43,635 nt of DNA, taken from positions 1 to 43,635 of the forward strand of contig JAUNNY010000010.1 of the NCBI GenBank assembly GCA_030531215.1, read 5' to 3'. Numbering within the stretch: position 1 is the first letter of the stretch; every line of letters begins with the position of its first letter. The translations under genes and the position numbers were made by a program. The stretch comes from Erysipelotrichaceae bacterium (GTDB taxonomy: Bacteria; Bacillota_I; Bacilli_A; Erysipelotrichales; Erysipelotrichaceae). Under the pieces are notes generated by a model, which was given only the letters and a program-made list of their open reading frames with translations, was not told where the DNA came from and did no database searches. Shown here piece after piece: positions 7,491-21,738 of the stretch.

Positions 7491-8981
7491 TTAATTATTA
7501 TCTCTATGACTGCAATGCGTCAAAGAAGCTATTTTTTTACTTAAGCTGCTATTTAGAGCGTTTTTCTTTAATCTAAACGTCCAACTTCCAATATTACCTG
7601 GCCTATTAATAGTATATTTATCATCGAGTCCTAAATAATCTTGAATCTGGCACATAAATAATTTCGCGACGGAATTCATACCTGTTCTAATAAAACAGTA
7701 ATTATATCCTTCTTCTTTATTTAAACCAAAATATTTCTTAGCATAATCTAAATCTTGCTTCTTAGTATTCTTAATCCAACCCATAATTGGTTCATTATCG
7801 TGAGTTGAAACATAACATACACAGTTTTCAATATGATTATGTGGTGAATGATAACTAGATCCATCATCAGCCATAGCGCATTGTAAAACTCGCATGCCTG
7901 GGAAACCTGAATATTCTAAAAGTTCTGTAACATCTTGATCGATAATTCCTAAATCTTCAGCTATAAAATCGATGTCTTTGCATTTTTCTTTTAATACTTT
8001 GATAAAATCTTTTGATGGCCCATTAACCCAATGACCATACTTGGCAGTTTTTTCGCCATATTTAACAGCCCAATAAGTTTCGAAACCTCTAAAGTGATCA
8101 ATCCTAACAACATCAAAACATTTAGAAACATTTTTAACTCTATTTATCCACCAAGCATAGCCGGTCTTTTTCATATATTTCCAGTTATACAAAGGATTAC
8201 CCCACAACTGACCTTCCGAAGAAAAATAATCTGGAGATATGCCAGCAACTTCTTTAGGAACTTTCGTTTTTTGGTCTAACACAAATTGTTTGCTATCCGC
8301 CCATACCTCGCATGAATCTAAAGCTACATAGATAGGTAAATCACCTATTATTTTTATACCTGAATCATTAGCGTATTTTTTAAGCTTATAAAATTGTTTA
8401 AAAAATAAGAACTGAATAAACTCATAATATTTAATATCATCAACTAATAATTCACTATATTTTTTCATCGCTTTGTCTTTACGTAAGATAATATCTTTAT
8501 CATCCCATTCCAACAAAGCTTTCATATTAAAGTGTTTCTTAATAGCCATGAACATTGCATAGTCAATCAACCAATCACTATTATCTTTTACAAATTTATT
8601 AAATTCTTTTAAATATTTCTTATAACCATTCTTATAAGCCTTATATAAGATTGGATATCTAGTCTTGTAGATATAACCATAATCAACATGTTCATCATCT
8701 TTGACCTTTAAAGATGAAACATCTTTTTTAGTTAATAATTTATCTTCAATAAGCAAATCTAAATCAATGAAATATGGATTACCCGCAACACTAGAAAAAC
8801 ACGAATATGGTGAATCACCATAACTAGTATGGCCAACTGGTAAAACTTGCCAATAAGTTTGTTTACTCGCAACCAAAAAATCAACAAACTTATATGCTTG
8901 TTTACCTAATGTTCCAATGCCATAGTTAGATGGCAAAGAAAATATAGGAAGTAATATACCAGCGCTTCTGTTAATACTCAT
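7491..8981 (-). CDS. malQ: 4-alpha-glucanotransferase (GH77, amylomaltase)
   Basis: Transfers maltooligosaccharide units between glucan chains, releasing glucose, in the cytoplasm. The 496 residues show the GH77 landmarks: N-terminal RSAGILLPIFSLPSNYGIGTLG, IGDLPIYVALDS, the nucleophile Asp in VVRIDHFRGFETYW, the acid/base Glu in FIAEDLGI and STHDNEPI. The ribosome site is GAGGA. It is divergent from the galactanase gene, with overlapping promoters in a 40-base gap. It should process the maltodextrins imported by the transporter at 12573-17784. Confidence 0.95.
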   Translation of the reverse strand: MSINRSAGILLPIFSLPSNYGIGTLGKQAYKFVDFLVASKQTYWQVLPVGHTSYGDSPYSCFSSVAGNPYFIDLDLLIEDKLLTKKDVSSLKVKDDEHVDYGYIYKTRYPILYKAYKNGYKKYLKEFNKFVKDNSDWLIDYAMFMAIKKHFNMKALLEWDDKDIILRKDKAMKKYSELLVDDIKYYEFIQFLFFKQFYKLKKYANDSGIKIIGDLPIYVALDSCEVWADSKQFVLDQKTKVPKEVAGISPDYFSSEGQLWGNPLYNWKYMKKTGYAWWINRVKNVSKCFDVVRIDHFRGFETYWAVKYGEKTAKYGHWVNGPSKDFIKVLKEKCKDIDFIAEDLGIIDQDVTELLEYSGFPGMRVLQCAMADDGSSYHSPHNHIENCVCYVSTHDNEPIMGWIKNTKKQDLDYAKKYFGLNKEEGYNYCFIRTGMNSVAKLFMCQIQDYLGLDDKYTINRPGNIGSWTFRLKKNALNSSLSKKIASLTHCSHRDNN

Positions 8982-8998
8982 ATATATTCCTCATACCT

Positions 8999-9028
8999 TA
9001 TAATAATATCAAAGGTACTATATGACAA
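8999..9028. promoter_or_regulatory. Overlapping divergent promoters of malQ and the galactanase
   Basis: Only 40 bases separate the two starts. Minus strand: -35 TTGTCA (9023-9028) and -10 TATTAT (9000-9005), spacer 17, driving malQ. Plus strand: -10 TATAAT (8999-9004) with no clear -35. The two -10 boxes overlap, so the genes probably compete for polymerase or share regulation. Confidence 0.5.
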
Positions 9029-10992
9029 AAATATCTAAATTATTATTCATAATACTATTATTAATAAATCTTGTCGCATGTAATAAAACAAAGATTGAGA
9101 CAGTAAAATCATCAGATGAAATCTATGTTCGAAAAATAGAAAAGCTAAGTGATGATTTTATTATGGCTGCCGATATTTCTAGTATCATCTCTTTAGAAAA
9201 TAGTGGCGTAAAATTCTACGACTACGATAATAATGAACAAGATATATTTAAAACTCTAGCCCAAAATGGAATCAACTATATTAGAGTAAGAGTATGGAAC
9301 GATCCTTACGACAGTAACGGCAATGGTTATGGCGGTGGAAATTGTGATATCAACAATGCTTTGGAAATCGGCAAACGTGCAAATCAATATGGCATGAAAC
9401 TTATCGTCGATTTCCATTATTCTGATTTCTGGGCTGATCCAAATAAACAAATGGTACCAAAAGCTTGGAAAGACTTAACAATTGAAGATAAAGCTCAAGC
9501 ATTATACAAATATACAAAAGAAAGTCTTCAATTATTAAAAGATAATAAAGTTGATGTCGGTATCGTAACTTTAGGAAACGAAAATAATACCGGCATGGCT
9601 GGAGAAACAATATGGATGAATATCATCTATCACCTAATGGCTTCTGGAGCAAAAGCAGTTAGAGAAATTTATCCTGATTCTTTAATCGCTGTGCACTTCA
9701 CTAATCCTGAAAGCAGTGATGCTATGTTAAATATTGCTAAAAAACTTGATTACTATGAATTAGATTATGATATATTTTCAACTTCATATTATCCATTCTG
9801 GCATGGAAGTTTAGATAATCTACATAATGTATTAGATACCATAGCTAATACATATAATAAAAAAGTTATGGTTATGGAAACATCTTATCCATACACGGAA
9901 GAAGACTATGATTATTTTGGCAATACTATTTCTAGTAAATCTTCTACACACCTATATCCTTTTTCAATACAAGGACAAGTTAATTCTTTATTAGATATCA
10001 TTGAAACGATAAACAATACTACAAATGGTATCGGTATTTGTTATTGGGAACCTGCTTGGATTCCTGTTGGTCTAAATTCTTATGAAGATAATCTTAAGAT
10101 ATGGGAAAACTACGGCTCTGGATGGGCAAGTAGTTATGCAAAAGAATATGATCCTGATGATGCCGGAAAATACTATGGTGGTTCAGCAGTAGATAATCAA
10201 GCACTTTTTGATAAGAATGGCTATCCTCTAGAATCATTAAAAGTATTTGCTCTAGCAAGATTAGGTAATGAAATAGAACTACAAATAGAATCAATAGACG
10301 AATTAAATCTTAAATTTAATTTAAATGATGAAATAATCTTGCCAGAAAAAATAGCAGCCAATATGAATGATGGTTCAAGTCGGCTTGTAGATGTAACTTG
10401 GGAAAACTATGATAAAAACATAAACACACAGGTTGGTATTTATGAGGTCAAAGGAAACGCAAATAGTCAACCAGTTATATGTAATATCGAAATAAATAGA
10501 CAAAATCTAATAGAAAACCCTTCTTTTGAAAACGATGACAATAAAACATATGTGCCAACATCTTGGAAGGTTATTGATTATGGTAATGAAGATGAATTAT
10601 ACGTTGAAGATAAAGTATCTGATTCTATAGATGGAAGTAAACATTACCACTTCTGGGCGAGCACTGATAAAACAATCAGTTTTAATCTTGAACAAGAATT
10701 AACAGACATCCATGAAGGAACATATGAATATAACATATCAACTATGGGTGGTGACTGTATCATTATAAGCACATACATTTACGTCAAGATAAACGATGAG
10801 ATTGCCTACCGAAAAGATGCACCATTGTTCACTACTTATAATGATTGGCATACTTCAACAATTTCCAACATCGAAATAAAAGATAACGATAAAATAGCAA
10901 TAGGAATTCATATTGAAACATTTGGTACAAATAAAGGAGCTTGGGGGAAGATAGATAATGCGATATTTAATGTTTGTGAACAAGAAAATTAG
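9022..10992 (+). CDS. Secreted lipoprotein arabinogalactan endo-beta-1,4-galactanase (GH53)
   Basis: Cuts beta-1,4-galactan of plant type I arabinogalactan outside the cell. The signal peptide ends in the lipobox LINLVAC (Cys20). The GH53 barrel covers about 50-390, with acid/base Glu in TLGNENNTG (near 186), nucleophile Glu in METSYPYT (near 286), and family signatures DFHYSDFWADP and CYWEPAWIP. A Big_4-like immunoglobulin domain follows (about 425-495). A C-terminal jelly-roll-like module (NLIENPSFEN...SWKV, about 497-656) resembles galactan-binding CBM61 found on other GH53 enzymes. The 656 residues are long for GH53 because of these add-ons. The stop lies inside the next gene, so the two are co-transcribed. 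Confidence 0.92.
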   Translation: MTKISKLLFIILLLINLVACNKTKIETVKSSDEIYVRKIEKLSDDFIMAADISSIISLENSGVKFYDYDNNEQDIFKTLAQNGINYIRVRVWNDPYDSNGNGYGGGNCDINNALEIGKRANQYGMKLIVDFHYSDFWADPNKQMVPKAWKDLTIEDKAQALYKYTKESLQLLKDNKVDVGIVTLGNENNTGMAGETIWMNIIYHLMASGAKAVREIYPDSLIAVHFTNPESSDAMLNIAKKLDYYELDYDIFSTSYYPFWHGSLDNLHNVLDTIANTYNKKVMVMETSYPYTEEDYDYFGNTISSKSSTHLYPFSIQGQVNSLLDIIETINNTTNGIGICYWEPAWIPVGLNSYEDNLKIWENYGSGWASSYAKEYDPDDAGKYYGGSAVDNQALFDKNGYPLESLKVFALARLGNEIELQIESIDELNLKFNLNDEIILPEKIAANMNDGSSRLVDVTWENYDKNINTQVGIYEVKGNANSQPVICNIEINRQNLIENPSFENDDNKTYVPTSWKVIDYGNEDELYVEDKVSDSIDGSKHYHFWASTDKTISFNLEQELTDIHEGTYEYNISTMGGDCIIISTYIYVKINDEIAYRKDAPLFTTYNDWHTSTISNIEIKDNDKIAIGIHIETFGTNKGAWGKIDNAIFNVCEQEN

Positions 10993-12535
10993 TAAGATAA
11001 TTATATTGGTATTAGTCATGTTGCTATCGAGTTCATGTACAAATAAACATATAGACACAATTGACGATAACTATCGCGTTTTTTATCAAATCTTTGTCGG
11101 TTCTTTTTCCGATTCAAACAATGATGGTATAGGTGATCTTAGAGGTATCATCAATCGTTTTGATTATCTAAATGATGGCAATAGCGAATCAAAAACATCA
11201 TTAGGAATTCAAGGTATTTGGTTATCTCCTATCTTTGAATCACCTTCTTATCATAAGTATGATGTTACAAACTATTATAAGATTGATGAAGACTTTGGCA
11301 CGATGGATGATCTTAAAGAATTGATAGAGTTGGCTCATTCAAGAAATGTCAAAGTAATTCTTGACCTAGCAATTAATCACACATCAACTGACAACGAATG
11401 GTTTAAACAGTTTAAAAACGCTCATATTAATGGCGAGACAAACAATCATTATTATGATTACTATGTCTACAAAAATGCTGACGAAGTTATTCCTGGTAAA
11501 ACTTGGAATTATTTGGGTAAAACAGAAAATTATGAATGTAACTTCTCTACCAGTATGCCAGAGTTAAATTTTGATAACCCAGTAGTTAGGCAAGAAGTAT
11601 ATGAGGTTGCGAAATATTATTTAGATTTAGGCGTTGACGGTTTTAGATTTGATGCGGCTAAATATATCTATTTAGGTGATGATAAACAATCAACCGATTT
11701 CTGGGCAGAATTCATCAATAAACTTCAAAAGATAAAAGAAGATGTTTATGTTGTTGGTGAAGTATGGTCTTCAGATAATGAAACCTACACTTATATCAGC
11801 GCTCTAAATTGTTTCAATTTCACTTTAGCTAATGCCGAAGGAAAGATTGCGGAAACTGCTAAAAATGGTGATGTGAATTTATATACAAAATATATCGTCA
11901 ATTATCAAAATAAAATAAAGTCTTTAAATGAAGATGCAATGTTGATGCCATTTATTTCTAATCACGATATGGATAGATCAGCAGGTTTTCTTATGATGGC
12001 AAATAAGTTCCCATATGTTGCGGCTAATTTGTTGCTGTTAGGTCCGGGTTCTCCATTCATCTATTATGGTGAAGAAATTGGTATGAAAGGTTCTAGAGGT
12101 GGTTCTAATACTGACGCTAATAGAAGACTTGCAATGCGTTGGGGCGATGATGATACTGTTAATAATCCTGAAGGTTCAACATTTGAGGAAAAGAAACAAA
12201 CAAATGGTACTGTAAAAGAACAATTAGAAAATGAAGATAGTCTATTAAACTACTATCGCAAACTAATTGATTTAAGAAATAAATATCCTGAAATAGCTAG
12301 AGGAGATTATGATTACTATAAAGACAGCACAAATGATATGGGAGGATTTATAGTAACATATAACGATGATGTTACAGGTATCTTCCATAACTGTTCATTA
12401 ACTAATGAACAATCAGTCAACTTAAGTAATTACGATTTTGAACAAATAGCTGATTATATAGGCTGCTCAGATATCGCAAAACTTGAAAACAATATCTTAA
12501 CCTTAGGACCTCAAACTTCTGCAATCTTAAAATAA
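10958..12535 (+). CDS. Secreted lipoprotein alpha-amylase family enzyme (GH13)
   Basis: Alpha-glucan-degrading enzyme anchored outside the membrane. The lipobox is VMLLSSSC. The GH13 regions are present: DLAINHTS (I), GFRFDAAKY with the nucleophile Asp (II, near 231), GEVWS with the acid/base Glu (III, near 266) and FISNHDMDR (IV, near 335). The 525 residues lack C-terminal binding modules. The start at 10958 overlaps the galactanase stop by 35 bases and has a GGGGGAAG ribosome site 7 bases upstream, inside the galactanase coding region. The products should feed the maltodextrin ABC system. Exact specificity (amylase versus neopullulanase) is not resolved. Confidence 0.92.
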   Translation: MRYLMFVNKKISKIIILVLVMLLSSSCTNKHIDTIDDNYRVFYQIFVGSFSDSNNDGIGDLRGIINRFDYLNDGNSESKTSLGIQGIWLSPIFESPSYHKYDVTNYYKIDEDFGTMDDLKELIELAHSRNVKVILDLAINHTSTDNEWFKQFKNAHINGETNNHYYDYYVYKNADEVIPGKTWNYLGKTENYECNFSTSMPELNFDNPVVRQEVYEVAKYYLDLGVDGFRFDAAKYIYLGDDKQSTDFWAEFINKLQKIKEDVYVVGEVWSSDNETYTYISALNCFNFTLANAEGKIAETAKNGDVNLYTKYIVNYQNKIKSLNEDAMLMPFISNHDMDRSAGFLMMANKFPYVAANLLLLGPGSPFIYYGEEIGMKGSRGGSNTDANRRLAMRWGDDDTVNNPEGSTFEEKKQTNGTVKEQLENEDSLLNYYRKLIDLRNKYPEIARGDYDYYKDSTNDMGGFIVTYNDDVTGIFHNCSLTNEQSVNLSNYDFEQIADYIGCSDIAKLENNILTLGPQTSAILK

Positions 12536-12572: not shown

Positions 12573-13712
12573 TTAAACTAATAAGTTCTTTTCACTTTCT
12601 ACATCGAACATGTGCATTACATGAGCTTTGAAAGTGATATAGATATCGTTACCAGCTAATAATTTAGTTCTTTCTTCATGACTTAATTCAGCTGTTGGAA
12701 CTCTAACAATAAGTGATGTTCCATCTTCTGTTTCAACATGTAAATGAACTTCAGAACCCATCATTTCATTTACTTTTATCTTACATTTAATAGCATTTTC
12801 ATCAGCTTCATTAGTTACACTGACATGTTCAGGTCTAACACCTAAGATAATATCTTGTGCTTCAACATTCTTTTCTTTTAAAGCATCACCTTTCAAGCCA
12901 TCTACAACAAGTTTTGTACCAAATGGTGTTACATAATATTTGTCATCTTCTTTAACTAAAGAAGTCTTGATAGTATTCATCTTTGGTGCGCCGATGAATT
13001 CGGCAACGAATAAATTATCAGGCATATCAAATACTTCATCAGGAGTACCTACTTGCATGATATAGCCATCTTTCATGATAACAATTCTATCACCAAGAGT
13101 CATAGCTTCTGTTTGATCGTGAGTAACATATACAAATGTTGAATCAATCTTTTGTCTAAGCATAATGATTTCGGCTCTCATTTGATTACGAAGCTTAGCA
13201 TCTAGATTTGATAGAGGTTCATCCATCAAGAAGACCTTAGAATCCCTAACCATTGCTCTACCGATAGCTACACGTTGTCTTTGACCACCAGATAATGCTC
13301 TAGGCTTTCTTGTAAGATATTCAGTGATGCCTAGGATTTCAGCAGCTTCAGTTACCTTCTTATATACTTCATCTTGAGGAGCATTCTTTAATCTTAGTGG
13401 GAAAGCCATGTTTTCAAATACTGATAGATGAGGGTACAATGCATAGTTTTGGAAAACCATTGCGATATCTCTATCTTTTGGTTGTAAATCATTTACTACA
13501 GTTCCATCAATTGAAATAGTGCCTTCTGAGATTTCTTCTAGACCAGCAATCATTCTTAGAGTGGTTGATTTACCACAACCAGATGGTCCTACGAAAACTA
13601 CAAATTCTTTATCTTTAATGTGTAAATTGAAATCATGAACGGCAATTACTTCATGTCCATGTTTTTCTGCATTATAAATTTTCTTTACATCTTTTAAAAT
13701 TACTTCTGCCAT
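12573..13712 (-). CDS. Sugar ABC transporter ATPase (MsmX/UgpC type)
   Basis: ATPase of the maltodextrin importer encoded upstream. Walker A GPSGCGKST (near 40), signature LSGGQRQR (near 135), Walker B VFLMDEPLSNLDAKLR, H-loop THDQTEA, and a C-terminal regulatory OB region. The 379 residues fit MalK/MsmX. It is the last gene of malE-malF-malG-ATPase. In related bacteria one MsmX-like ATPase often serves several sugar transporters, so it could do so here. Confidence 0.93.
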   Translation of the reverse strand: MAEVILKDVKKIYNAEKHGHEVIAVHDFNLHIKDKEFVVFVGPSGCGKSTTLRMIAGLEEISEGTISIDGTVVNDLQPKDRDIAMVFQNYALYPHLSVFENMAFPLRLKNAPQDEVYKKVTEAAEILGITEYLTRKPRALSGGQRQRVAIGRAMVRDSKVFLMDEPLSNLDAKLRNQMRAEIIMLRQKIDSTFVYVTHDQTEAMTLGDRIVIMKDGYIMQVGTPDEVFDMPDNLFVAEFIGAPKMNTIKTSLVKEDDKYYVTPFGTKLVVDGLKGDALKEKNVEAQDIILGVRPEHVSVTNEADENAIKCKIKVNEMMGSEVHLHVETEDGTSLIVRVPTAELSHEERTKLLAGNDIYITFKAHVMHMFDVESEKNLLV

Positions 13713-13721
13713 ATTTTTCTC

Positions 13722-14585
13722 CTATCCTTTTACTGCTCCACCAGTTACGCCTTCTACATAATATTTTTGTAGGCACATAAACAAGATGGTAATTGGGATG
13801 GCAACGATAACGCCACCAGCACAGAACATCGTATAATTTGCAGCCATTGATTCTGGCTTAGCAATTAAGTTTTGTAAACCAACCGCTACATTCATACCCA
13901 TACTCGTATTGTGAGCAAGATACTTAGCTGTCATGAAGTCTCCCCATGGAGCCATGAATGCAGTTAAGATTGTATAGATAACAATTGGTTTTGCTAGAGG
14001 CATTATTACCTTATAGAATACTTGGAATCTATTAGCACCATCAACTCTAGCGGCTTCATCTAATGATCTAGGAATTGTATCAAAATAACCTTTAGATACG
14101 TAATAACCCATAGCACTAGAAGCAGTATATACAAGGATTAATCCTGGTATTGAATTAGCGCCAGTCATACCCAACCAACTAAATACTTTGTAGATTAATA
14201 TCAATGATAAGAATCCAGGGAACATTCCTAATACCAACATCGCATTCATCAAGAATCTTCTTCCTCTAAATCTTAATCTAGATAAAACATAAGACATTGA
14301 TAGAACCATAATTGTTTGAATAGCAGCTGTAGCTAAACCAACAATGAAAGTATTTTTAAACCAAACTGGGAAATCGGTTTTGGTAAACAAATTGATGTAA
14401 TTATCTAAACCCCATTGTTTTGGAATTAGATAACCAACTTGATATGTACATTCACATCTTAGTGATTCCAAAACCAAACACACAAACGGAATTAACCAAA
14501 TACAAGAGATGACAATCAAGATAAAATATACTAAGCCATTAGATAATCTATTCTTGGCTTTTAAACCCATATGTTTCTTTTCCAT
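13722..14585 (-). CDS. malG: Maltodextrin ABC transporter permease (MalG type)
   Basis: Membrane subunit with six hydrophobic segments and the EAA loop SLDEAARVDGANRFQVFYKVIMPLAKP near residue 190. The 287 residues fit MalG/MdxG. Its ATG at 14585 overlaps the malF stop by one base, and the ATPase follows after 9 bases, so it belongs to the mal operon. Confidence 0.93.
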   Translation of the reverse strand: MEKKHMGLKAKNRLSNGLVYFILIVISCIWLIPFVCLVLESLRCECTYQVGYLIPKQWGLDNYINLFTKTDFPVWFKNTFIVGLATAAIQTIMVLSMSYVLSRLRFRGRRFLMNAMLVLGMFPGFLSLILIYKVFSWLGMTGANSIPGLILVYTASSAMGYYVSKGYFDTIPRSLDEAARVDGANRFQVFYKVIMPLAKPIVIYTILTAFMAPWGDFMTAKYLAHNTSMGMNVAVGLQNLIAKPESMAANYTMFCAGGVIVAIPITILFMCLQKYYVEGVTGGAVKG

Positions 14586-16153
14586 TATTGATAGTCCTCC
14601 TCATTTCTTGTCGAAGGTATAACGTTGTAGACAATTAATGATAATACTGCAACTACAACGAATATCATAATACCGATAACAGAAGCTAGATAATATTTGG
14701 ATTCAGCACCAGTTGTAATCTTGAATAGCCATGTGATCAATAAGTCGGTATCACCAGCTGCTCCACCACTAGTTAATAGTAGTGGATTATCTGGTCCGCC
14801 TGCTGTTAACAAGTAAATTACATTAAAGTTATTTATATTACCAATGAAGCTCGTCAACAAATATGGCCCTGTTACAAACAACATATAAGGTAGTGTAATC
14901 CTAGAGAATTGTTGCCATGCATTAGCACCATCAATATTTGCGGATTCATATAGATCAGCAGGGATATTCATCAAGATACCAGTTGTAATCAACATTAGAT
15001 ATGGGATACCAATCCAAATATTGATTATAATAACCATCACTCTAGCTAATGTACCATCTTCCCAGAATCTGATAAAATCACCCGTTGAAGTAAAGACACC
15101 ATTATTTAATAAGAAACCATTAATTAAACCAGAAGTAGAGAATATCTTTGATATATATAGTAGTGATATAAATTGCGGAACAGCACTAGTTAATACTAAG
15201 ATACCTCTCCATAATTTCTTAAACTTGATACCTTTCTTGTTGATTAACATTGCTACAAACATACCTAAGAAATAGTTTGTAAATGTCGCAAAAACAGCCC
15301 ACATTAATGTCCAAGATAATATTTCACCAAAAGCAACAGATAAATTATCATTGCCTAGATTTAAATTAAATAAAGAATTGAAATTAGTTAAGCCTACCCA
15401 ACTAAATAAATTAGAATATCCATCATGAGCACCATCGTAATTGGTAAAAGCAACCAAGATCATAAAGATAATTGGAAAAATAGTAAAAGCACTAATACCA
15501 ACTATAGGAAGCGCTAATAAAGTTTTATGGAACTCATCATCAAGTAATGATTTTAAATCATCTTTTCCTGATTTAATCTTCTTTCCAGATTTAATGATGT
15601 TCTCCATTGTCTTATTTTGTTTAATATTTAAACGATAAGTATAAATAAAAGCAATGATAAAGATAACAGTTAGAACACCATATAATAAACATTTGAATGA
15701 ATCATCATTTGCTTGCAAAACATAAGTATCTAGAACAGGGTCATAGACGCTTACTGTAGCAGTATCGCCTAATGTTATTAGTTTGCCCAGCCAATAACCA
15801 CCACAAATAAACATATAGCCGATGAAGACAACTTCAAACACTAAAAATAAAATGCCTTTTACTATTTGTCCTCTAGTTAAATGTCCAAATCCCATTACAA
15901 GAAATGATGTTTTTGTTTTATAATCTCCGTTTTTAAAGATATTAAAAATATCAACAATATCATTCTTAACTGCTATAAAGAAATTACGAATGATATTTCC
16001 AATTGCTTTTAATAAGTTTAAAAGCCAACCAGGAATAGCTTTAATGATATGGATGAGTTTATATAAGAAAGCTTGAAATTTATTTAGACGTAAAAAATCT
16101 AAATCACTTAAGTTATCAAACAAACTGATTTGTTTTTCTGCTTTTGTGCTCAT
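14585..16153 (-). CDS. malF: Maltodextrin ABC transporter permease (MalF type) with long N terminus
   Basis: Partner channel subunit of MalG. Residues 210-520 form the conserved permease with ESANIDGANAWQQFSRITLPYM as the EAA loop. The first 200 residues add an amphipathic, basic segment and two or three membrane helices (FLVMGFGHLTRGQIVKGILFLVF). This makes the protein 522 residues, close to the long MalF of Escherichia coli rather than the roughly 300-residue short form. It follows malE after a stem-loop. Confidence 0.92.
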   Translation of the reverse strand: MSTKAEKQISLFDNLSDLDFLRLNKFQAFLYKLIHIIKAIPGWLLNLLKAIGNIIRNFFIAVKNDIVDIFNIFKNGDYKTKTSFLVMGFGHLTRGQIVKGILFLVFEVVFIGYMFICGGYWLGKLITLGDTATVSVYDPVLDTYVLQANDDSFKCLLYGVLTVIFIIAFIYTYRLNIKQNKTMENIIKSGKKIKSGKDDLKSLLDDEFHKTLLALPIVGISAFTIFPIIFMILVAFTNYDGAHDGYSNLFSWVGLTNFNSLFNLNLGNDNLSVAFGEILSWTLMWAVFATFTNYFLGMFVAMLINKKGIKFKKLWRGILVLTSAVPQFISLLYISKIFSTSGLINGFLLNNGVFTSTGDFIRFWEDGTLARVMVIIINIWIGIPYLMLITTGILMNIPADLYESANIDGANAWQQFSRITLPYMLFVTGPYLLTSFIGNINNFNVIYLLTAGGPDNPLLLTSGGAAGDTDLLITWLFKITTGAESKYYLASVIGIMIFVVVAVLSLIVYNVIPSTRNEEDYQ

Positions 16154-16172: not shown

Positions 16173-16207
16173 AAAAAATGGGTAGATAGTCATGACTATC
16201 TACCCAT
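16173..16207 (-). terminator. Strong stem-loop between malE and malF
   Basis: A perfect 30-base palindrome (16178-16207), arms ATGGGTAGATAGTCA and TGACTATCTACCCAT, is followed on the minus strand by T6. It forms a terminator 11 bases after the malE stop. Partial read-through and 3'-end protection would give more binding protein than permease, the usual expression pattern for such operons. Confidence 0.85.
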
Positions 16208-16218
16208 AAATAATTTAA

Positions 16219-17784
16219 TTATTGAGCAATTTTAACTTCTTTGCTTGTTTCGTTGAATGAAACTGTGTAAGTACCAGGAGCAGCAAAGATGAAGTTGTTA
16301 TCAGTATTGCCAGCATCTTCACATGCAGCAGTATCTAATAATTCAGCACCTTCAACAACTTGAGCATAACCTAAGTCGTTACCCCATTCACCAGCAACAA
16401 CAATACGACCACCCATGTAATCAGATTGTTCAACATTGATTGTTACTGTCCAGTTTTCACCATCTTGGCTCATGTTAGAATCTGTATTATCCCAACCGTT
16501 CCAAGCACCAACGCAACCATATCCGCTTAATGCGAATAGAGCATCGATTGAAGCCTTATAAGAATCTAGACCAGCTTGTAAATCTTCATCAGAAGTAGCT
16601 TCTTCACAAACAGTACCTAAAACCTTAGCGATATCCCACCAAGAACCATGGATTTGGCCTTGAGGAATAGCATAAGCATTTTGAGAAGCAAGAGCAGCTA
16701 ATGTAGGATCAGCTGTAACTGCTGGATCTGCTTGAGCAACTTTATTAGATGGACCCCAACCAACTAGATTGAATCTAGCTAATTGACATTCTTCATTAGT
16801 TAAGTATAGAGCTAATTTTTGACAAACAGCAGCTTTCTTAGCATCAGCTTGAGGTTTAACGCCCATTAACTTATTGCCAGAGAAAGAACCTAAGTGGTAA
16901 GTTTGACCATCAACTGTGAATGAAGGAAGATCAGCAACGCCCATGTTGTCGCCTAAGATATCCTTAATAGTTGAAGAAGCCCAAGTACCTGTAATAACTA
17001 CAGCAGCACCTTTAGAGAAATCAGCACCATCACTTGAAGAGTTAGCACTTGGTGATTTAGCTAGGATTTCCATACCCTTCATAGCTACTAAACCTTCAGC
17101 AGAATCAAATGTATCGTTAACACTAGTGAACTTGCCATCAGAAGCAGTTGTCCAATCAGATACACAACCAGTAGCGAAGAAGAATGCAGCGTTGTACCAA
17201 GCAGAAGTCTTGTATTCCATTGAGAATAACTTATTGTTATCTTCACAAGCTTTAACTAAAGTAGCCAAATCATCAATTTGATCTTCTGAAATGACTGACT
17301 TGTCATAGTACATAAAGTAACCATTATCTGAAGTCATTGGGAAGCAATATACTTTACCATCAACTGTAGCGGCATTAACTGAACCAGCATCATTAGCTTC
17401 AGTAACTTCAGCAGTAGTTTGTTCACCTAGAGCATTTAAAGCACCAGCTTGAACTAATCTTGCTAATTGGTCTTGAGCAAAACAGAAAATATCAGCACCA
17501 GATTCAACGTCTGTAATCATAGTAGTTGCAGAATCAGCTTCTGAAATACCTTCGATTGTAGCGTTGATTACGATACCAGGATTTTCTTCCATAAATTTGT
17601 CGATTTGTTGTTTTGTTAAATCGGCAACACCTTCAGATTCAGATACCCATAAAGTTACATCATAAGTACCATCTAAAGTGTTTTCTGATTGTCCATCATT
17701 AGCAGTTTCATCAGCCTTGTTTCCACAAGCAACTAGAGAAATAGCCATAAGAACAACCAACATAATACTTAATAGTTTTTTCAT
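16219..17784 (-). CDS. malE: Maltodextrin-binding lipoprotein with extra C-terminal SusE/F-like domain
   Basis: Receptor of the maltodextrin importer. The lipobox is LMAISLVAC (Cys20), followed by an acidic linker and a type-1 sugar-binding fold (YDVTLWVSESEGVADLTKQQI, and KGAAVVITGTWASS typical of MalE) to about residue 410. A separate domain of about 100 residues follows: VGAWNGWD near 420, WTVTINV, IVVAGEWGNDLGY, APGTYTVSFNETSKEVKI at the end. This pattern looks like the starch-binding repeats of Bacteroidetes SusE/SusF. Usual MalE proteins are 400-430 residues, so the addition is real. It probably helps hold glucan at the surface. The domain identity is inferred by eye. Confidence 0.88.
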   Translation of the reverse strand: MKKLLSIMLVVLMAISLVACGNKADETANDGQSENTLDGTYDVTLWVSESEGVADLTKQQIDKFMEENPGIVINATIEGISEADSATTMITDVESGADIFCFAQDQLARLVQAGALNALGEQTTAEVTEANDAGSVNAATVDGKVYCFPMTSDNGYFMYYDKSVISEDQIDDLATLVKACEDNNKLFSMEYKTSAWYNAAFFFATGCVSDWTTASDGKFTSVNDTFDSAEGLVAMKGMEILAKSPSANSSSDGADFSKGAAVVITGTWASSTIKDILGDNMGVADLPSFTVDGQTYHLGSFSGNKLMGVKPQADAKKAAVCQKLALYLTNEECQLARFNLVGWGPSNKVAQADPAVTADPTLAALASQNAYAIPQGQIHGSWWDIAKVLGTVCEEATSDEDLQAGLDSYKASIDALFALSGYGCVGAWNGWDNTDSNMSQDGENWTVTINVEQSDYMGGRIVVAGEWGNDLGYAQVVEGAELLDTAACEDAGNTDNNFIFAAPGTYTVSFNETSKEVKIAQ

Positions 17785-17894: not shown

Positions 17895-18971
17895 CTATAA
17901 TTTCTTGATAGCATTTAATACTGGCAAAGTTTGACCATCATAATCAAAAATTGCTTGATTTGCCCATTCGTTTCCTAATGGTCCTTTTTCTTTGACGTAT
18001 TCTATTCCCTCATAAGTTGCCCAGCCTGAACCATCATAAGGTATAAGTTCGCTTCCCCAATAAATAAACCCTTCTAGGTCATCTATCCTTTTTATTAATT
18101 TACCTAACGAATCGAAATAATCGCATTGCCCTTGCCTACTTATGTCAAATTCTAGATTTGGTATAAGTTCTTTTTTTAATGCCATGCCTTTTCTTTGGTT
18201 ATCGGGAATATTTTCTTTATAATCATCGATTGTAAATGGATACGAAGTCTCTGCTATTATAACTTTCTTATGATATTTATCTATTGTCTTGATTATATTA
18301 TCTTCTAGAAAACGTAATCCTTTATTCCAAATTTGATAATAAGACATACCAATATAATCGAAATCCATTCCTCCATTATTAAAATACTTTTCAAACCAGG
18401 TATCATACAATTCTTCATTAGTTCCATTATCTAAATGAATCATCGTTTTTATATTGGAATCAAAATCATTAACTGCTTTGATCCCACTATTCACAAAACT
18501 AACAAGATTATCAAAATGTTCTGTGTCGCCAATTGGCCATAACATGCCGTTAGTTATTTCGTTGCCTATTTGTACCATTGTGGGTCTATATGACAAATTA
18601 TTTAATACAAAATAAGTAAAATCATATATTTCTTCTACTAATTCATCAACACTTTTTCCTATCCAAGCTTTAGGCATTGTTTGTTTACCAGGGTCAGCCC
18701 AAAAATCAGAGTAATGAAAATCTAGTAGATAAGGAATCTGATACTTCTCACAATAATCTACATTTCTCTTAAGATAACTGATATCACATATTCCTCCACC
18801 ATACTCTTTTTTATTTATAGAATAAGGGTCATTAAAAATTCTTAATCTTATTAGATTAGCGCCATTATTTTTTACTATTTCAATGGCGTTTTTCTCTTCG
18901 CCATTTTCATAATATTTGCCACCTAGCTCATATATTCTAGCTAAGGCAGACATATCAAAACCTTTAATCAT
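17895..18971 (-). CDS. Cytoplasmic endo-beta-1,4-galactanase (GH53)
   Basis: Second GH53 enzyme, 358 residues, catalytic barrel only, with no signal peptide. Acid/base Glu is in VQIGNEITNG and nucleophile Glu in IIAETSYPF. DFHYSDFWADPGKQTMPKAW and FIYWGSEL are family marks. It probably trims imported galacto-oligosaccharides. The ATG at 18971 (MIKGFDMSAL) is chosen; a TTG at 18983 in the same frame would add four residues and has a closer GGAAG site. It overlaps the zinc-ribbon gene end by 8 bases and is the last of a run of overlapping genes that begins at dnaE. Confidence 0.9.
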   Translation of the reverse strand: MIKGFDMSALARIYELGGKYYENGEEKNAIEIVKNNGANLIRLRIFNDPYSINKKEYGGGICDISYLKRNVDYCEKYQIPYLLDFHYSDFWADPGKQTMPKAWIGKSVDELVEEIYDFTYFVLNNLSYRPTMVQIGNEITNGMLWPIGDTEHFDNLVSFVNSGIKAVNDFDSNIKTMIHLDNGTNEELYDTWFEKYFNNGGMDFDYIGMSYYQIWNKGLRFLEDNIIKTIDKYHKKVIIAETSYPFTIDDYKENIPDNQRKGMALKKELIPNLEFDISRQGQCDYFDSLGKLIKRIDDLEGFIYWGSELIPYDGSGWATYEGIEYVKEKGPLGNEWANQAIFDYDGQTLPVLNAIKKL

Positions 18972-19194
18972 CAAATTTCTCAAAATCTTCCATCTTAAAA
19001 CGACGAGACATATCTAAATATTTAAGTCTAACTTCCTCGTTTTTCTCTAAAACTCTTTTTTCATCACCATGAAAAGAGCACCGTAAGCAATAGTATTCTT
19101 TCTTATCTGGATCATAAAACATGTCCATATCGATATCGCGCATAAAACATTGTGGACAACGATAGTTTAATTTAATTTTTCTAGCTTGAGCCAT
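18964..19194 (-). CDS. Small zinc-ribbon protein
   Basis: 76 residues with two CxxC knuckles, YRCPQCFMRD (near 12-15) and YCLRCSFHGDE (near 35-38), followed by a charged helical tail. The four cysteines should bind one zinc. Function unknown: such stand-alone ribbons bind nucleic acid or partner proteins. It overlaps the genes on both sides (28 bases upstream), so it is translated together with them. Confidence 0.75.
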   Translation of the reverse strand: MAQARKIKLNYRCPQCFMRDIDMDMFYDPDKKEYYCLRCSFHGDEKRVLEKNEEVRLKYLDMSRRFKMEDFEKFDD

Positions 19195-20993
19195 GTTTTA
19201 ACATCCTCCTTCATATTTACAGTTACATCGTATTCAAGAGTGAACATTGGCGAGAAAGCATACCCTTCTCTAACAATGCCTACACAATCATCATTTTCAC
19301 AAGTCATGACTACTTTAGTATCAATAGGTGTAACATCAGAACTTATTTGTTTTGAACCTTCCTTAATAATTTCGCGACATTTATATTCATAATTCATAGT
19401 TTGTTCATCATTATGAAGAACAATAGAACCCATATCTTCAGGATATTCAGTTGTTCCATATGTAGCTACCATATATTCCTTGATAGTTATTTGGGCATTC
19501 TCATCACTAGTTTCAACAATCTTTCTAGTTACTTCTATCTCACTGCTTCCTTGTTTAAAACTAATAATAGAAACTAACTTAATTGTTAAATCAGAAAATT
19601 CAATTTCAACAGGATCTAAAGTTAGTGTTCTATTACCATTATCATTATTAAAATGAGCGTGAGTTCTGCATAAACACAAATCAACTTCTTCACCATTGTG
19701 GCATATCTTGCCACTTCTAATAGTTCCTTCACCCGCATAGTGTGTAAAATAACCAGCACGATACTTTTCTTGGATTAGATATGGGTATGAAACATCTTGA
19801 ATATGTTTACTACCAACACCCATTTCATAGTCAAGTTTAGATACATAAGGTCTTAAATCGACCAAAGCACCACCTTGATCCATATTGATACAAGCACGCA
19901 TATAAGGATCAAGATACCAGAATAATTGTTTATTTGAACCATACAGGATATCACGCCATAAAGCACACTCAGGTTCTTCATAAGTTTTAATTGAACGATA
20001 ATGGTCCGCAAATTCAGCCATTGTCATATCTACTAACTGGCCTTGTTTCTTTAATTCGCCATAATAGTTACAACCATCTTTGTATGCTTTTTCTAATAAT
20101 TCATAAGGTTGTTCCCAACGTCCCATTTTGTTCATCCAGCCTGGACCAACAAATACCATGTTGTAACAATAACCATTATTAAATTTTTCTTGATAACGGT
20201 ATTGATCAACTAAGTTATAAAAATATGGAAATTCCCATGTTTTAGTATCGTAAATCATACCTCTTAATACATTTTGAGGATGAGTTCCAAAGTTTGAACC
20301 ATTGCCATCGTAACAAGCCAATAAATCTCTACTTAAATGTGGAATCGCAACAATACCACTGTCCTCTTGTTTATTTGCCGCTGGTGCATGTGTGTTTTGC
20401 TTACTTGGAATCCATGGAGCCCATGGTCCACCATCCATCAAAGTGTACCAAGAGTTATTACAAGTATGATATGCCTTTGGTCCTTCTTCAAAACAAGTAG
20501 CTACCGCACATTTAACACTAGGATATTTTTCTTTAATATAATTGATCAGTTCAGCATCCATATAATATGAACCAGTTGATTCAGGATAAAAGCCAAATTT
20601 CTCATAAAACTTTTCAAAAACATCATCTACTATATTATGTTTATCTTCTTTAGAAAACATCCAAATACAAAACTCTTTGGTCTTATATTTCTTTCTAAAT
20701 TCTTCACAAGGCAAACCTAGTAATGTCAAAGCTATTTCATCACCATATTTTTCATGATCGTGTTTTGCGATTTCTACGGCCTCATCATTGAACAAAGAAG
20801 AATAAGTCATTTGAATGGTTGTCTTTAAGCCACACTCATGCGCAATCCTTTGTTGCGTTATAAAAATATCTAAACTTTCATTTAGCAGTTTTTGATCACC
20901 CAAATCTTCTTGTTTTCCATGCCCTGTTACTTTTTGTGAGTACTCGGGAACCATTTCAGGACGATGAATAAGATTAAGAATTAATTTTGCCAT
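19167..20993 (-). CDS. Unrecognised 608-residue protein, possibly carbohydrate-active
   Basis: Cytoplasmic, with no signal or membrane segment. Residues 1-370 start AKLILNLIHRPEMVPEYSQ and include WMFSKEDKHN, FGFYPESTGSYYMDAE, MDGGPWAPWIPSK and VGPGWMNKMGRWEQP. The alternation and the FGFYPE...GSYYMD pattern recall the beta/alpha barrel of polysaccharide deacetylases and GH57-type enzymes; the C-terminal 230 residues look beta-rich. It may correspond to the DUF3863/DUF3864 pair, which cannot be confirmed here. The start is ATG 20993 with GGAG 9 bases upstream, not the upstream in-frame ATG at 21059 inside the phosphatase gene. Next to GH53 and a phosphatase, a role in oligosaccharide use is a guess. 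Confidence 0.7.
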   Translation of the reverse strand: MAKLILNLIHRPEMVPEYSQKVTGHGKQEDLGDQKLLNESLDIFITQQRIAHECGLKTTIQMTYSSLFNDEAVEIAKHDHEKYGDEIALTLLGLPCEEFRKKYKTKEFCIWMFSKEDKHNIVDDVFEKFYEKFGFYPESTGSYYMDAELINYIKEKYPSVKCAVATCFEEGPKAYHTCNNSWYTLMDGGPWAPWIPSKQNTHAPAANKQEDSGIVAIPHLSRDLLACYDGNGSNFGTHPQNVLRGMIYDTKTWEFPYFYNLVDQYRYQEKFNNGYCYNMVFVGPGWMNKMGRWEQPYELLEKAYKDGCNYYGELKKQGQLVDMTMAEFADHYRSIKTYEEPECALWRDILYGSNKQLFWYLDPYMRACINMDQGGALVDLRPYVSKLDYEMGVGSKHIQDVSYPYLIQEKYRAGYFTHYAGEGTIRSGKICHNGEEVDLCLCRTHAHFNNDNGNRTLTLDPVEIEFSDLTIKLVSIISFKQGSSEIEVTRKIVETSDENAQITIKEYMVATYGTTEYPEDMGSIVLHNDEQTMNYEYKCREIIKEGSKQISSDVTPIDTKVVMTCENDDCVGIVREGYAFSPMFTLEYDVTVNMKEDVKTWLKLEKLN

Positions 20994-20994
20994 A

Positions 20995-21738
20995 TCATTT
21001 CTCCAAGAATTTATCTTTAAACATTTGTTTTTCTTTTTTAGTAATTCCCATATGTTCAAGCATCTTATCTACGCTTTTATATTTCTTTTCAACTTCATCA
21101 TAGTATGCATTGATATATTCAACATATGTTCCATCATAATTAGGTATCATGTTTGCACATTCGTTAGTATATAAATAGTCTTCGATGATATCTTTTCTAT
21201 CGACATCTAAGCACTCAAGAACTAAAGCTGTTCCAATTCCACATCTATCTCTTCCTAATGAGCAATGCCAATAAGTTGCTTCTTCACTTTGTAAAACCTC
21301 TTTCAAAAAATAAGCGTATTTACCACATGTGTAATCACTAACTAGTGTTCGATAAAACTCACACATATGGGTAATCTTGAAATCGAGGTTTTTCATTTTT
21401 TTATCTAGCTCCGCAAAGAACTTCTTCATTTCTTCGACAGATTTTTCATCTTGAGTTACACCAATAGTTTGTGATTGTTGAACACCATTATAAATGTATC
21501 TAGTATCTAGGTAGATTTGATCAGGTTTTTCATACTGTTCAGTTTCAGTTCTAAAGTCAAATATTGTTCTTACATGATATTTTTCATACAAATCTTTAAT
21601 ATCGTTTTTACTAGCTTCATATAATCTTGAACCTCTGATTAAACAATTGGGTTTAATCGCAAAACCATCTTTGTTTCTTATTGCGCAAAGATCTCTTACG
21701 TTGTATAGTTTTTCAAATTCGAGTTTCTTAGAATGCAT
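20995..21738 (-). CDS. Tyrosine/serine protein phosphatase (Y_phosphatase3 type)
   Basis: Dual-specificity-like phosphatase of 247 residues. The active-site loop HCSLGRDRCGIG (near 157-168) matches HCxxGxDR(T/C)G, with Cys as nucleophile and Arg as phosphate binder. The N-terminal NVRDL and IRGSRLYEA motifs are typical of this bacterial family, whose members act on phosphotyrosine, phosphoserine or phosphoinositides. It follows the histidine kinase by one base and precedes the 608-residue gene by one base, so the expression is shared. Confidence 0.88.
   Translation of the reverse strand: MHSKKLEFEKLYNVRDLCAIRNKDGFAIKPNCLIRGSRLYEASKNDIKDLYEKYHVRTIFDFRTETEQYEKPDQIYLDTRYIYNGVQQSQTIGVTQDEKSVEEMKKFFAELDKKMKNLDFKITHMCEFYRTLVSDYTCGKYAYFLKEVLQSEEATYWHCSLGRDRCGIGTALVLECLDVDRKDIIEDYLYTNECANMIPNYDGTYVEYINAYYDEVEKKYKSVDKMLEHMGITKKEKQMFKDKFLEK

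Follow-up and report, generated by a model that had tools for sequence, protein, structure and literature searches.

Glycan-binding modules usually sit on enzymes, on scaffolds or on separate surface lipoproteins. SusE and SusF of Bacteroides thetaiotaomicron (4fem, 4fch, 4fe9; PF16411) are separate outer-membrane lipoproteins that carry two or three modules and accompany a SusCD importer. Modules of the X25 type are found on the scaffold proteins Sca5/Sas20 of Ruminococcus bromii (7rpy) and on an enzyme, the pullulanase of Bacillus acidopullulyticus (2wan). In Sca5 the X25 modules work in tandem, as a pair, and share with SusF a starch site built on two Trp residues, in which an Asn is among the hydrogen-bonding groups; isolated single modules do not bind maltoheptaose, and single SusF modules are cited in the same work with a Kd of about 300 uM (PMC9112005). 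Among the ABC receptors, the maltotriose receptor EUR_01830 of Eubacterium rectale (4ua8) and MalE1 of L. casei (5mk9) are without a C-terminal module, and none is known for the galacto-oligosaccharide receptor GanS (NF053763).

We analysed a stretch of 43,635 nucleotides from an Erysipelotrichaceae bacterium (contig JAUNNY010000010.1; hereafter, the window) in which a predicted module of this kind is part of an ABC receptor. The receptor gene and its neighbours are arranged as follows.

7491..8981, minus strand: GH77 4-alpha-glucanotransferase (MalQ), a cytoplasmic maltodextrin enzyme (family match)
9022..10992, plus strand: extracellular GH53 lipoprotein, an endo-beta-1,4-galactanase of Bacillus type that resembles 9fli in its C-terminal region
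10958..12535, plus strand: extracellular GH13 lipoprotein, an alpha-glucan hydrolase (PF00128, 1.4e-81)
12573..13712, minus strand: MsmK/UgpC-type ATPase, 9-bp gap after the MalG gene (family match)
13722..14585, minus strand: MalG-like permease, 1-base overlap with malF (family match)
14585..16153, minus strand: MalF-like permease, 65-bp gap after the receptor gene (PF00528; NCBIfam MalF 1.5e-53, under its cut-off)
16178..16207, minus strand: terminator-like hairpin in the receptor-permease gap, a possible attenuator (consensus scan only)
16219..17784, minus strand: solute-binding lipoprotein of a CUT1-type ABC importer, 521 aa (open reading frame and Pfam)
17895..18983, minus strand: GH53 lacking a signal peptide, immediate upstream neighbour of the receptor gene across a 110-bp gap (family match)

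It is likely that 16219..17784 encodes a malto-oligosaccharide ABC receptor carrying an X25-type, alpha-glucan-holding module straight after its last receptor helix. This fusion is a new combination of known parts. A literature search found no description of a receptor-X25 fusion, which is weak evidence because it covered only part of the literature, with few subscription papers. Like SusE and SusF, the module would have its role beside a glucan importer. Unlike SusE/SusF proper, which are free-standing Bacteroidota proteins whose modules come in tandem and whose genes lie in a SusCD operon, it is a single module fused to an SBP_bac_8 receptor of a Gram-positive ABC system, beside MalF, MalG and MsmK. 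The window protein also differs in its one module from the tandem scaffold modules of Sca5, with which, as with the pullulanase, it shares an origin in Bacillota.

Several features of the locus stand apart from this reading. The hairpin at 16178-16207 (minus strand) has 13 pairs and a T-rich tail and, judged from its sequence, could hold expression of the permeases below that of the receptor. The two GH53 proteins are unlike each other: the secreted, Bacillus-type one (9022-10992, plus strand) carries GNENNTGMAGE, and the signal-less one (17895-18983, minus strand) carries GNEITNGMLWP. A protein encoded at 19167-21059 (minus strand) belongs to a type of about 608-630 aa that is strongly conserved (761-1103 bits) in several importer loci from different families. 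Searches of Pfam, NCBIfam and PDB sequences gave no significant relative for this protein, which is a candidate glycan-active enzyme of a new type.

The 521-residue receptor begins with a signal sequence and lipobox (LVAC), followed by a receptor lobe at residues ~40-416 and a C-terminal X25/SusE-F-like domain. SBP_bac_8/SBP_bac_1 models match residues 57-364 (PF13416, 1.3e-28), and automatic annotation of the protein recognises the receptor part only. In the predicted model the last receptor helix spans residues 399-416 and the first strand of the C-terminal domain starts at 422, leaving almost no linker. Such a junction, as modelled, would allow the receptor lobe and the module to share a surface. 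The C-terminal part is defined as follows.

16222..16539, minus strand: C-terminal domain as modelled, residues 416-521 (AlphaFold2 pLDDT 95.7)

The compact sandwich itself corresponds to about residues 420-521 (DNA ~16527-16222, minus strand) and is followed by the stop codon at 16221-16219. The initial annotation had given the interval as 16219-16545, which does cover the domain, although its first few codons still belong to the tail of that last receptor helix. Its description of a domain of about 100 residues with WNGWD, GEWGNDLGY and GTYTVSFNETSKEVKI was accurate, every motif being present as quoted. The source genome, which is incomplete (69%) and, by its nearest relatives, of Erysipelotrichaceae type, contains one detectable copy of the domain.

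When predicted alone with AlphaFold2 from an alignment of the window domain and 40 relatives taken from their loci (A1), the domain forms a small, compact beta-sandwich with a mean pLDDT of 95.7 and a pTM of 0.87. Foldseek against the PDB returned the second X25 module of Sca5 (X25-2), two SusE entries and an X25-bearing pullulanase at ranks 1-4, with weak E-values (0.09-0.4). In VIA-align, SusE scored Z 8.9 (89 residues, 2.5 A) and SusF Z 8.7 (94 residues, 2.8 A), above all other proteins; a second SusE entry gave Z 8.4, and the X25 modules of the Bacillus pullulanase and of R. bromii Sca5 gave 7.9 and 7.8. Below these came amylase domains (5.7 and 5.0) and unrelated Hsp70 domains (<4). Because middling Z values are common in VIA-align, the step from 7.8 to 5.7 and the uniformly starch-binding top rows outweigh the absolute scores. 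A viral structure library held no match for the domain model.

By this fold the domain belongs to the X25/SusE-SusF-like superfamily. The SusE/F-like fold proposed from the sequence was therefore upheld by structure prediction and comparison, with SusE and SusF as the top two matches, a clear drop after the X25 modules, and agreement from sequence profiles. The likeness to starch-binding repeats of Bacteroidetes surface proteins holds as well, but the module is not confined to that group: the X25 fold is also that of modules in the Bacillus pullulanase, in scaffoldins of R. bromii and in lipoproteins of other Bacillota.

Sequence homology to this superfamily is detectable at the level of the domain family. 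Searched by itself against Pfam, NCBIfam and PDB sequences, the window domain gave nothing significant, the only match being a partial one to choice_anch_M (7.9e-6, under its cut-off). A choice-of-anchor reading was dropped, as this match, at 26 of 55 bits, falls well short of the cut-off and the structure match is specific. When 41 family members were scanned individually (E up to 5), 29 matched PF16411 (SusF_SusE), 13 matched CBM53 and six matched the X25_BaPul model. The best PF16411 member, L061 (1.6e-6), is the sole one above the cut-off, with 29.0 bits against 27.5. There was no PF16411 match for the window domain, which is thus a divergent relative and not a formal PF16411 member.

A mixed profile (A4), built from the window subtype together with a diverged subtype found in related receptors and with X25 repeats of other Bacillota, was also searched against the PDB. 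Its top match was SusF (1.7e-7), followed by the dextran-binding SGBP BT3088 of Bacteroides (SGBPdex; 3.3e-5) and SusE (1.5e-3), all ahead of any unrelated chain. The narrow profiles A1 and A3 did not reach SusF or SusE in the PDB, and their best matches were chance ones. The finding that only A4 reaches SusF indicates a sequence link that is real but distant. In a profile-profile comparison, the window subtype (A) and the diverged subtype (B) aligned over no more than the last 27 columns (probability 91%), so the kinship of the two rests mainly on the mixed alignment and on their same position in the receptor.

Alignment with SusF identified a candidate glucan site in the module, consisting of an aromatic pair, a basic residue and an Asn.

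16492..16494, minus strand: W431 (domain W16), proposed glucan-stacking Trp 1, invariant; about SusF 287 by the VIA-align range
16405..16407, minus strand: R460 (domain R45), aligned in A4 to the Lys of SusF 'QVKF', invariant
16384..16386, minus strand: W467 (domain W52) of WGNDLG, aligned in A4 to SusF WGNDFG, proposed stacking Trp 2, invariant
16294..16296, minus strand: N497 (domain N82) of DNN, aligned in A4 to SusF 'GGN', invariant

In the VIA-align range, model residue 5 corresponds to SusF 276, which places W431 at about SusF 287. The A4 search of the PDB aligned the conserved 'K..g.sWdtD.G' with SusF 'QVKFAPQANWGNDFGF' and the conserved N with SusF 'GGN'; with the entry numbering taken to be offset by 15 from the sequence positions, as deduced from the two outputs, the aligned SusF positions are 323, 330 and 356. 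We take the ligand residues of the aligned SusF module to be W287, K323, W330 and N356, reportedly those given by Cameron and colleagues in 2012. The window module thus resembles SusF in its WGND.G motif and in its aligned W/K-or-R/W/N constellation, and its candidate Trp pair also resembles the glucan site of Sca5.

All four residues are invariant in the 41 sequences of the domain alignment (41/41) and in the 43 of the full-length alignment, and they lie among only 17 invariant columns in the domain. The C-terminal domain is not a chance feature: its fold is predicted with confidence, it is kept in 80 of the 80 nearest relatives, and it has these 17 invariant columns. An invariant W, R, W, N set is hard to square with the proposal that the module no longer binds sugar and is a mere structural spacer or a domain for docking to peptidoglycan, to the permease or to partner enzymes. 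This proposal, which we consider quite improbable, is favoured by the position of the module straight after the last receptor helix with hardly any linker, and by the observation that a single X25 module can be incompetent for binding on its own (PMC9112005). Likewise, Foley et al. (2018) report that SusE aids starch uptake independently of starch binding. The presence of two modules in six relatives fits binding by avidity and argues against a spacer.

The function we prefer for the module, and the one suggested by the initial annotation, is that of a second glucan site that couples capture to import; we infer binding of glucan by the module, alpha-glucan as the ligand, and a benefit of this binding for import. 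The extracellular GH13 lipoprotein would cut alpha-glucan outside the cell, and the C-terminal module would keep a weak hold on the polymer or on longer oligosaccharides. Sugar rings would stack against W431 and W467, and R460 and N497 would supply hydrogen bonds. Holding by the module may raise the local concentration of product at the receptor mouth. The two-lobed receptor would then close on a short malto-oligosaccharide, dock with MalF/MalG and hand it over to MalF/MalG/MsmK, and MalQ (GH77) would process the imported sugar in the cytoplasm. By analogy with the isolated Sca5 modules, which do not bind, a lone module may be too weak by itself, and a full site in the window protein may take contributions from the receptor lobe or from neighbouring receptors.

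The receptor lobe favours alpha-glucan. Its closest solved relatives by sequence are EUR_01830 (4ua8) and then MalE1 of L. casei, and the first eight PDB chains matched by its predicted fold are maltodextrin- or cyclodextrin-binding proteins. The operon likewise resembles those of EUR_01830 and MalE1 in its MalF, MalG, GH13 and GH77 genes. With its SBP_bac_1/8 lobe, these nearest relatives and the adjoining MalF/MalG-type permeases, the protein is probably a CUT1 maltodextrin ABC receptor, and the name 'maltodextrin-binding protein' proposed for it agrees with both sequence and predicted fold.

The frequency of GH53 genes in related loci, together with the two in the window, leads to a different proposal, in which the system serves beta-1,4-galactan. 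The importer would take up beta-1,4-galacto-oligosaccharides released by GH53 from pectic galactan, as Bacillus GanSPQ does, and the module would be an X25 fold re-tuned to galactan. We consider this unlikely. Its evidence includes the extracellular GH53, which is a full Bacillus-type galactanase (PDB matches 1r8l, 5e-147, and 9fli, full-length, 5e-176), and the second, signal-less GH53 that adjoins the receptor gene. The receptor shares its superfamily and its GH53 neighbours with GanS. Among 53 well-flanked relatives (domain-bearing, with at least 4 kb upstream and at least 4.5 kb downstream), 39 have GH53, in many cases immediately upstream of the receptor; in 40 loci GH53 lies directly upstream, within 600 bp and in the same direction.

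GH13, however, is as conserved as GH53 (43 of the 53, with both in 36), and some domain-bearing loci (L057, L059, L069, L076 and L151) have no GH53 in the flanks covered. Receptors from five Lachnospiraceae loci with GH53-free flanks, over the stretch covered, differ consistently from the others at only 8 positions, mostly conservatively, and this speaks for a single kind of ligand in all of them. The closeness of the receptor lobe to maltodextrin binders and the match of the module's conserved site to alpha-glucan-binding SusF also speak against galactan. The window protein stays under the GanS cut-off, with 91.9 bits for NF053763 against 700. The GanS model was dropped as a guide to ligand: it is also the best match of 4ua8, a maltotriose binder, and the genomic 'GanS' match L098 adjoins a GH13 gene.

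Sister receptors without the domain give a similar picture. In six of seven such loci the order is receptor, MalF, MalG, GH13, and upstream of it several have GH77 or a regulator of LacI type. The remaining one reads GH77, receptor, MalF, MalG and then ends with its contig. None of the seven has GH53 in the 6-13 kb covered. The receptor with 96% identity to EUR_01830 likewise lies in a GH77/GH13 operon. Receptor kinship, sister operons, flank counts and the few receptor differences linked to GH53 place alpha-glucan clearly ahead of galactan; with galactanases as neighbours, starch is the likelier but not a certain target. An unlikely further reading is that the fusion would be a Gram-positive counterpart of the Bacteroides system with capture and import in one polypeptide, the module keeping hold of the polymer and the receptor lobe withdrawing oligosaccharides from it, perhaps in clades whose receptor has been re-tuned to pectic galactan. 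If such re-tuning were true, X25 would be a galactan-binding fold as well.

Each of the 80 nearest relatives from species-representative genomes has such a domain, in one copy or two, although 80/80 is not a frequency in nature because the set was picked by whole-protein similarity. One domain of the window subtype is present in 62, one of the diverged subtype in 12, and two in tandem in six, so that 18 carry the diverged subtype in one or two copies. Their hosts are rumen and gut Erysipelotrichaceae, Lachnospiraceae, Oscillospiraceae, other Clostridia and one member of the Acholeplasmatales, indicating that this architecture occurs widely among Bacillota of rumen and gut. The receptor-module fusion is common to a large clade. 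Conservation in many uncultured rumen and gut Bacillota suggests a Gram-positive way to retain hydrolysis products without an outer membrane. In 40 genomes sampled around an Agathobacter MAG, the domain-less sister receptors are 44-49% identical to the Agathobacter fusion protein and end before the domain. The genome with the receptor 96% identical to EUR_01830 yielded only domain-less receptors as matches, and the characterised E. rectale receptors are therefore probably without the fusion.

Related domains were also observed in other arrangements. A genus relative (G031, contig C211) has a 2997-aa frame (L107:3512-12502, minus strand) in which nine Ig-like Big_2 repeats precede four solute-binding proteins in a chain: an SBP with an X25-like domain, a Bmp/PnrA-type protein, another SBP_bac_8 and a second Bmp. 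Segments related to this unusual bead-string receptor occur in long frames (1840 and 1616 aa) of other genus members. An 817-aa receptor with an X25-like domain (L097:2992-5442, minus strand; G009, contig C144) has three CWB2 cell-wall-binding repeats in front, which suggest that it is probably attached to the wall instead of anchored in the membrane. Finally, free-standing lipoproteins of 509 and 528 aa with two or three X25-like repeats are encoded in other Bacillota (L104:1495-3021, minus strand, with L109; and L106:646-2229, minus strand). The first of these (L104/L109) has neighbours of the GH13, LacI and MalF types, an arrangement like that of SusE/F but outside Bacteroidota.
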